Assembly (NCBI GenBank): GCA_016188775.1
Contig: JACPHC010000009.1
Span: 1 to 43,957, forward strand
Origin: Parcubacteria group bacterium
GTDB taxonomy: Bacteria; Patescibacteriota; Minisyncoccia; JACPHC01
Length of the DNA stretch: 43,957 bases
Direction: 5' to 3'
Positions 33,444 through 39,680 of this stretch are shown in pieces; positions within the stretch are counted from its first letter, which is position 1, and the number at the start of each line of letters is the position of its first letter. Below the pieces are notes generated by a model, which worked only from the letters and a program-made list of their open reading frames with translations, searched no databases and was not told the DNA's origin. Both the position numbers and the translations under genes were made by a program.

Positions 33444-36400
33444 ATGGAACAATTTCCATTCCCACAACCAAATATAGGCGAGCCGGAAAAAAAAGAAGAA
33501 AATTTAGAGCCAAAACCCGGATTTTTGGAAACGGCCGAAGAAAAAGTCACTAGGCAATTTAAAGAAGAAGAAGCGGAGAAAACAGCGGAGGAAAAAAGGG
33601 TTGTTGAAGAAGGAGAGAAAAAACCATCGGGTCCGGAAATGAAAGAAGAAAAAAAGCCGGAGGAAAAACAAGAGCCCGGAGTCTCGGAGGAAGTAAAAAA
33701 ATCCATTGAGCAGGCTTACGGAATAGATAAAGGAGAAATGGAGAAGCCCGAAAAGTCCGAAACAGAGAAAGTAGAAGGAAAAAAGCCGGAGGCTAAAGCT
33801 CCTCGTGGTTGGAGCATTCAAGAAATAATTGATAAAACGCGAGGTTATGATGTTTTGCGTGAAGAAATGATGAAAGAACGCAAAGAACGCATGGAGAAAG
33901 CAAAAAAAGAGAAATACGCCGAACCTTTGTCAAAAGTTGAAAAAGCCGGAATTGGGGCGCTTCAAAAATTTGGTTTTGGCGAAGCAGGCGCCAAAGCTAT
34001 TTATCAAGTCGGCAAAGGCGGTTTAAATACGATCGGTTCCATTTTTGGCGCCCGACTGGCTTGGGAGGCGCCGAAACTGATTTATGATCATTATAAAAAG
34101 AAAGGCCAAAAAGAAAAATTAAGCGATTTGACAACGACTTTGCTTGAAAACGCTCAATTCAATAAAAAAGTTAAAATTGAAAAAGGCCAAGCGCTGACTG
34201 AAAAACAAAAAGCAGAGCGGGAAAAATTAGAAGCGAAAGCTGGGGCGGAAAGGCCGGTTTTGGCCGCGATTAAAGAATTAAACGCGAAATTAAAAGAAGC
34301 GAAAATGCCGCCGGAAGAGAAAAAGAAGATGCGTTCGGAGCTGGCCGTGATTTTACAAGAATATAAACATAAAGGAAAAGATTTGGAAAAAGCCAAAACG
34401 GAAAAGACCGGCAAACTATTGGATTTATATATTAATAATTCCGCGCAAAAAATGGTAGTGGCCAGAGAGGCGGTGAATACTTTATCAATTGCCACTTTTA
34501 CTCCTTGGTTAAGAACTGTTGGTTATGCGGCTTTTGCCGGTTTGGAAAAAGTGACTAAAGCCGGCCAAAATTACGAGAAAAAACATTTTAAAGAGACTGA
34601 AGGATGGAGAAAGGATTTTGGCAAATTCGGCGCGGTGGCCAAAAATTTAACCATTGACTCGGCTCGAGAAACTTTTAACGGCTTAACCTTTAATTATTTT
34701 AACAAAGAGAAAAAAGGAAAAATACAAACTGGCGCGGAATTTGCTTCGTCAATGTTTATGTTGATGAGAGTAGTGGGTTTATATGAATTTGAAAAAGCGA
34801 TGCAGTCCGGAAGTTTACCGATTCAAGAAGGAGCCAAGAAATTTTGGGAAAATTTTGAAAAAGGAGATTTAGAAGGGGCATTGAGGCAAGGCGGAGAAAA
34901 TATGCTCGCTAACGCCCAACGACTTTTATCTCACGTCGGTCTTGCGGAAAATCCGGATCAAGCGATGAAAAAATTAATGGAAGGAGGAAGGCCGCAGGGG
35001 AAAGGTTTATTTGAGACGATTCAAGAGGAAAGAAAAGGCGAAAAACAAGAAGGATTGGGCGCGGTTATATTGGAAAAAGCCAAAGGCGAATATCGAGAAA
35101 GATTGGGAAAGGAAATCGCTCTGGCCGGTTTAGCCACAATTCACCAGGGGGAAGGCATTGAGCACGGTCTTATTCGCCAGCTTGAATTTGATCCCGCGGC
35201 TCATGGTTTTAAGGGCGATTCTAATAATTTTGTTGAAGTCCATCGTTGGGCCCAAGGCGAGGCGCATAAAATCGCGGTGGAGAATAATTTTATTAATCCG
35301 GCAACCGGCGAAGAAACAAGAGTTATTTTTGACGCTAAACATCCGGCCGAATATATTTTAAAACCGGAGGGGTCGGTTGATGTTGTTAATCGCAATGAAT
35401 ATTCTTGGAAACCGGCGGAAGAAACGAAAAAAGTTTTGGAAAACGCGCGAAATCTTTCAATAAAAACTCCGGAGGAATTAATGAAAGAAAATCTTGAGCT
35501 TCAGGCGATGAGAGAAGAAAGCCAAAAAATTCTTGATTATAAAATTCAACATGACGCTTGGGGAAAATCAGATGAGGAGGTTAAAGATTTAATAAAACTA
35601 AAAGAAATGCAGGAAACTATGACTATGACCGAAGGTTCGGAAAAAGGCATGGAAATGCCGCCGGAACTTCGCGGAGAATCTATACCTCAATCAGTTGAAC
35701 AACCGAGAGTTGGAGAGTCTACTCCATCCTATTCAAAGGAAGAATTTGCTTCAGAAGGCTCTGAAAAAGGAATGGAAAATCCTCCTGAATTTAGAAAGGA
35801 ATCAGATGTTTTTCAAAGAGAATACGGTCCTAAAGCTGAAGTTCAACCGGAAATGACTTCCGAGGAAAAACTAAAAGAAATGCAGGAAACTATGACTATG
35901 ACCGAAGGTTCGGAAAAAGGCATGGAAATGCCGCCGGAATTAAGAGAAGAAAAAGTTGTTCTGACCGCGCCTGAAGCGGAGAAATTAAAAGAAGAATTAA
36001 AATTAGAAGAAGAGAGGATGGAACCCGTTCAAGAATCGACTATTTTTAAAGAAGAAGCGCCTTCTCAAGCGGAAATTCAGCCAGAACCGTCCGAAATGGA
36101 AAAGGCGATTAAAATGGAAAAAGAAAAAGGGGCGAGTGAATTTTCAGTTAATGTTCCAGGTGAAGAACGAGAAATTCCGCCAATAACGGAATTGGAAAAA
36201 GAAAGATTGAGAGAGACGGTTAATATTCCCGGAGAAGAAAGGGCGAGCGCTGTTAAACCGGAAGAAATAGAAAAAGCCGCGGAAGAATTTAAGGGATTGG
36301 GCAAAGAAGTATTAAAGGAAAATTGGCGTCAGGACGTAATGAATAAATTAGCTGGTAAAGGAAATACTAATCTTCATCTGAGTCGCATTGAAAACGCGGC

Positions 36401-39680: not shown

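Follow-up and report, generated by a model that had tools for sequence, protein, structure and literature searches.

The window (the entire 43,957-nucleotide stretch of DNA analyzed here) is contig 2 of a 767 kb genome in 10 contigs that is given as 100% complete; coordinates refer to features on the plus strand unless stated otherwise. Four open reading frames follow one another on this strand: the gene for a giant charged protein (33444..36545; 1033 aa, pI 5.5, 37% D/E/K/R), the gene for a 74-aa orphan protein, G2 (36558..36782), the gene for a 135-aa acidic, highly charged protein, G3, with homologs in three genomes (36809..37216), and the gene for an 823-aa T4CP-like ATPase (37209..39680) that lacks a transmembrane (TM) anchor and consists of an SMD domain, a VirB4-like N-domain and a TrwB-like motor. 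The successive spacing is a 12 nt gap, a 26 nt gap and an 8-nt overlap, and the ORF coordinates confirm the close spacing and the overlap before the ATPase described in a previous, sequence-only reading of this DNA. The same reading placed a strong promoter upstream of the giant gene. A sigma-70-like match, TTGTCT-17-TATAAT (33397..33425), agrees with the consensus in 10 of 12 positions, but its strength is not borne out, given that promoter-like matches in the region are only in modest excess over the shuffled expectation (19 observed vs. 12.1 ± 3.7).

The statement that no relaxase, VirB4 or pilin gene lies nearby holds for the 33444-39680 stretch, in which none was seen, but not for the genome. 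As that reading proposed, VirB4 and pilin loci were sought, and another contig (G000:C9) was found to encode VirB4 (P-loop_TraG, 90.6 bits), a TrsD-like protein, PrgI (29.9 bits) and a pilin-like protein (T4SS_pilin, 21.4 bits, under the cut-off of 26.6) beside dnaA and dnaN, which were named from sequence, without a profile search. Downstream of the ATPase lie a gene for a GtrA-family membrane protein (39838..40497) and a DnaX-like ORF (DNA polymerase III gamma/tau; 40666..41829), respectively a frequent and a recurrent downstream neighbor of the ATPase in relatives.

Domain composition of the ATPase

The motor of the ATPase scored above the Pfam cut-off for TrwB_AAD_bind (30 bits vs. 20.5), DUF87 was matched above its cut-off as well (27.3 bits), and TrwB was the best PDB sequence match, in agreement with the original description of a VirD4-like ATPase. 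In Foldseek comparisons of the AlphaFold2 model (pLDDT 85.6), the RecA-like motor (residues 403-823; 38415..39677) matched TrwB (TMt about 0.65), with HerA also among the structural matches (TMt 0.55), and the entire chain loosely matched TrwK/VirB4. When the N-domain (residues 62-402; 37392..38414) was modeled alone (pLDDT 89.1), the best 14 PDB matches were all R388 TrwK/VirB4 entries (E = 3.4 × 10−6 to 1.3 × 10−3, prob 1.00). Thus, the chain combines an N-domain of the VirB4 type and a motor of the VirD4 type. Across 21 orthologs that align over the full length, the Walker motifs are invariant, with Walker A at residues 427-435 (GQTGTGKSS; 38487..38513) and the Walker B stretch at residues 677-685 (FYLYIDEFQ; 39237..39263). 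Between the two falls a predicted helical insertion (residues 502-615; 38712..39053), which resembles the T4CP all-alpha domain by position only, in the predicted structure. Three other assignments were rejected: the chain as VirB4 (no match to P-loop_TraG, PF19044, and 12.6% hhalign probability to CPR VirB4), the chain as a HerA/FtsK DNA translocase (TrwB outscores HerA in both sequence and fold) and the N-domain as a TrsD homolog (hhalign 2%).

A nucleotide-binding motor with Walker A/B is the defining T4CP motif (PMC7434980); in the window ATPase such a motor, a helical insertion and a VirB4-bearing T4SS in the same genome are all present, and the feature that is missing is the N-terminal TM anchor. 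Because the stop-to-stop frame is merely 7 codons longer than the called ORF, no anchor is concealed upstream of the start, and the earlier observation of an anchorless ATPase stands. In the absence of the anchor, the ATPase is assigned only to the TMD-less kind of T4CPs, which has known examples that function alongside a partner in the membrane (PMC7434980). Judging by sequence and predicted structure, the ATPase belongs, as a divergent member, to a kind of T4CP that is already known and has a widespread architecture; what is new in it is the VirB4-like N-domain, SMD, the recurrent anchor-losing fusion and the operon partners.

Comparison with known systems delineates these features. With TrwB of R388, a VirD4-type T4CP, the window ATPase shares the RecA-like motor, the Walker motifs and the helical insertion at the all-alpha-domain position, whereas the additional VirB4-like N-domain, the fused SMD, the lack of a TM anchor and a gene that adjoins neither a relaxase nor virB4 set it apart. 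VirB4/TrwK has a similar N-domain fold but differs in the motor, which in the window ATPase is TrwB-like. Like TraJ/TraI of pIP501 (PMC7434980), the window ATPase is a motor without a TM segment of its own that needs to be held by a partner; unlike in that system, the TM segment was lost on fusion of a soluble neighbor gene, and the unfused orthologs keep it.

The SMD domain and the loss of the anchor

In a sample of 35 genomes of the class, that of the window included, two types of T4CP were distinguished. Type A, to which the window ATPase is orthologous, is a single chain of about 820 aa present in 28 of the 35 genomes; relatives of its N-domain were detected phylum-wide in 156 of 192 genomes at E ≤ 1 × 10−20. 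Type B, the second conserved chromosomal T4CP locus of relatives, is split into an N-part gene, which in most loci encodes a TM segment, and a motor gene downstream of it (about 420 and 600 aa, respectively; L057-L070). Of the two types, the window genome carries just type A, with no second T4CP-like ATPase, and a type B match is absent from G019 and G027 too. The type B pair often lies downstream of SecD/SecF-like genes, beside an elongation-factor-P-like gene (L057-L070).

Type A orthologs normally carry an N-terminal TM helix, and upstream of them lies a gene of 65-178 aa that ends in SMD. The C-terminal ~55 aa of this small protein match residues 3-58 of the window ATPase, in which SMD (residues 2-59; 37212..37385; three predicted helices, modeled with low confidence, pLDDT 53-70), a separate upstream gene in most relatives, is joined directly to the N-domain, with loss of the TM helix. 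SMD was identified in 25 of the 28 genomes with a type A ATPase and in none of the 7 without one (Fisher p = 1.8 × 10−5); it is essentially single per genome and adjoins the ATPase everywhere except in G015.

The N-terminal TM helix is present in 27/27 unfused type A orthologs compared; its absence from the window protein is thus a derived state that came with gene fusion, which the sequence-only reading had no means of seeing. TM-less SMD-ATPase fusions were also found in 19 further genomes from several families, which retain about 80 additional N-terminal residues compared to the window protein; one scan of genome contigs yielded only 3 distant loci, none of them fused. In the phylogenetic tree, the window fusion branches among TM-bearing lineages, apart from the remaining fused clades, and the supported branches require a minimum of 3 changes of the fused state. 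Given this separation in the tree, fusion with anchor loss probably arose more than once. Independent fusions and a single fusion followed by reversals are both possible, and the differing junctions fit better with independent fusion. Fusion is not tied to the loss of type B, which is retained in 19/19 of the other fused genomes. The recurrent anchor-losing fusion is strong comparative evidence for direct contact between SMD and the ATPase, and is suggestive of a way for a T4CP to work without a TM helix.

The giant protein and its small partners

Searches of the giant protein detected no Pfam or NCBIfam match and no strong TM segment, and no direct homology was found between it and most large proteins of the relatives' operons. 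Two of its parts, however, recur. The core (residues 179-440; 33978..34763) is common to large proteins of three genomes (G019, G214 and G100), each of which is directly preceded by a G3 homolog (3/3; E = 7.5 × 10−12, 4.9 × 10−12 and 2.8 × 10−11 in the three genomes). The pair in G019 lies in the neighborhood of the ATPase, and in G214 and G100 no ATPase was present within the 13-17 kb fetched. The C-terminal module (residues 950-1033; 36291..36542) is common to large proteins encoded directly upstream of SMD-ATPase (G125 and G161) or of DUF5663-SMD-ATPase (G009). Since relatives of the core pair with G3 and those of the C-terminal module with SMD-ATPase, the window giant unites both modules. 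Near-identical internal repeats occur in the giant gene at about 35595-35951, with LKEMQETMTMTEGSEKGMEMPPELR present twice and the related SEGSEKGMENPPEFR in between. A LysM-like module suspected by eye in the giants found no support in Pfam, where the best match, in one relative, had E = 0.1 and the window protein had none.

The order large charged protein, DUF5663, SMD, ATPase is frequent in many families. Of the 72 class genomes that bear DUF5663, 24 have it at most 3 kb from the gene for the ATPase or for SMD, as counted from coordinates, against a chance of about 1% each; because the mapped loci with the four-gene order were chosen for proximity to DUF5663, this count alone is unbiased. 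A search of the available literature collection retrieved no paper on DUF5663, and the domain was not detected in the genome of the window (G000). Assignment of G3 itself to DUF5663 (PF18908) failed, with an HMM E-value of 22 within the fetched proteins and hhalign probabilities of about 21% for the pair and 0.6% for G3 alone; G2 has no homolog in the fetched loci or Pfam. The linkage of the upstream genes to the ATPase, which the sequence-only reading had assumed, is upheld, with large charged, small helical and SMD genes preceding the orthologous ATPase in other families. Linkage and order recur in some relatives, and the window giant is divergent. In two genomes (L118 and L120), DUF5663 and a 926-973-aa relative of the large proteins found in the ATPase operons are encoded near dnaA, where the T4SS genes of the window genome sit, a position that is no more than suggestive.

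The ATPase as a coupling protein and the alternatives

The same combination of N-domain and motor was detected by tblastn in Bacillus phages (phage G and SPO1), Actinobacteria, Bacillus and haloarchaeal plasmids. On an Embleya plasmid, the order is PrgI, VirB4, the ATPase relative (28% identity, with a TM-like N-terminal segment) and Replic_Relax; on a Bacillus plasmid, the relative adjoins a replication-relaxation gene and TcpE; in phage G, the VirB4-like gp155 is immediately followed by the T4CP-like gp156 (L123 3285-7427); and on a haloarchaeal plasmid, a VirB4-like protein is followed by the N-part and the motor as separate genes. Among the contexts examined, VirB4 or relaxation genes adjoin the ATPase relatives in three plasmids and phage G, and no annotated VirB4 was found around the relative in SPO1. 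The Actinobacterial and Bacillus plasmid T4CPs, annotated as 'type IV secretory system conjugative DNA transfer' or 'DUF87', share the N-domain and motor with the window ATPase at 24-28% identity but belong to conjugation-type operons, with no SMD seen.

In Patescibacteria, a published survey reports 5,713 VirD4 homologs in 2,918 genomes, only 148 of them near virB4, such that T4CPs distant from virB4 are the rule, and places virB4 close to dnaA and dnaN in the majority of classes (PMC12102498). The gene order on G000:C9 agrees with the latter finding. The window ATPase, a chromosomal T4CP far from virB4 and with no relaxase, resembles these homologs; relative to the survey's account of them, the split into types A and B, SMD, DUF5663 and the fusion appear to be additions.

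We favor, with a probability of about 0.6, the interpretation that the ATPase is a coupling protein, peripheral and coupled to the T4SS, with SMD as an adaptor and the giant and small proteins as a client pair. The TrwB-type motor would receive substrates and hand them to the patescibacterial T4SS encoded on contig 9, with SMD acting as an adaptor or assembly subunit at the N terminus of the ATPase. With SMD covalently attached, the motor could stay at the membrane as a peripheral protein, retained by the VirB4-like N-domain in the way that VirB3/PrgI retains VirB4, and such holding may have made the TM helix dispensable more than once. The client pair would be formed by the giant and a small helical protein, which is G3 in the window and DUF5663 in many relatives; the two might act as substrate of the T4SS and chaperone, or else as a scaffold positioning the motor. 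A coupling role is supported by the non-CPR relatives beside VirB4 or relaxation genes and by the T4SS in the same genome. Some findings speak against obligate coupling. VirB4 was found in 24/28 class genomes with the type A ATPase and in 6/7 without it, i.e. no co-occurrence (p = 1, 35 genomes); of the four ATPase-bearing genomes without a VirB4 match, two are no more than 90% complete. Furthermore, a T4CP is reported to be non-essential in Ca. S. epibionticum, in contrast to other T4SS genes (PMC12102498).

More tentatively, and with the odds somewhat against it, the type A locus might represent a distinct patescibacterial coupling complex, a hybrid of a VirB4 N-domain and a TrwB motor with an obligate, repeatedly fused SMD, which loads giant proteins into the T4SS or is itself fixed to it by them. 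In such a complex, equally tentatively, the motor would be made soluble and single-chain by fusion, and the giants would be very large, charged and membrane-associated, each with a small helical partner dedicated to it. Cultivated Saccharibacteria are reported to depend on the T4SS for epibiotic growth (PMC12102498), and the locus supplies a candidate coupling complex and the partners of that complex, namely SMD, DUF5663 or G3, and the giant proteins.

The strongest competing explanation, which we consider less likely, is that the ATPase descends from T4CPs but was exapted for a task independent of the T4SS, for example in the handling of DNA inside the cell or at the cell envelope, where SMD and the giant and small pair would be its cytoplasmic or membrane partners. 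The lack of correlation with VirB4, the conserved location on the chromosome near GtrA and dnaX, the presence of HerA among the structural matches, and the reported non-essentiality of the T4CP, for which the authors of the survey themselves allow exaptation (PMC12102498), are all compatible with such a change of function. However, relatives outside CPR with the same two-domain architecture adjoin VirB4 or relaxation genes, and the genome has a T4SS and no second T4CP-like ATPase, both of which speak against exaptation.

The proposal of the sequence-only reading, a reduced or novel free-standing system, fared worse: the ATPase is of a known T4CP kind, and an ordinary patescibacterial T4SS is encoded elsewhere in the genome, on a separate contig by dnaA, so that the ATPase locus is no self-contained reduced system. 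Compactness and co-directionality of the cluster and the analogous four-gene order in many families would suit four genes forming such a system independently of the contig-9 T4SS, with the giant as channel or substrate, but no channel, VirB4 or pilin gene was found in the cluster or recognized beside the ATPase in the relatives' mapped loci, which, together with the full T4SS elsewhere, makes this highly improbable. Least credible of all is an assembly or gene-calling artefact that disguises a real protein with a TM helix, in favor of which there is nothing but the lack of a close relative with the same fusion, and against which stand the single open frame without a frameshift, the TM-less fusions of the same two parts in the 19 other genomes and the comparable positions of the SMD-N-domain junction.

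At the end of the contig, a candidate serine-recombinase-like ORF on the minus strand (41750-43507; 585 aa as called) overlaps tRNA-Gln (41815-41886), an arrangement reminiscent of elements that insert at tRNA genes. Also near the contig end, the same 40-letter translated stretch occurs at about 42000-42160 on the minus strand and 43610-43740 on the plus strand, forming an inverted repeat.
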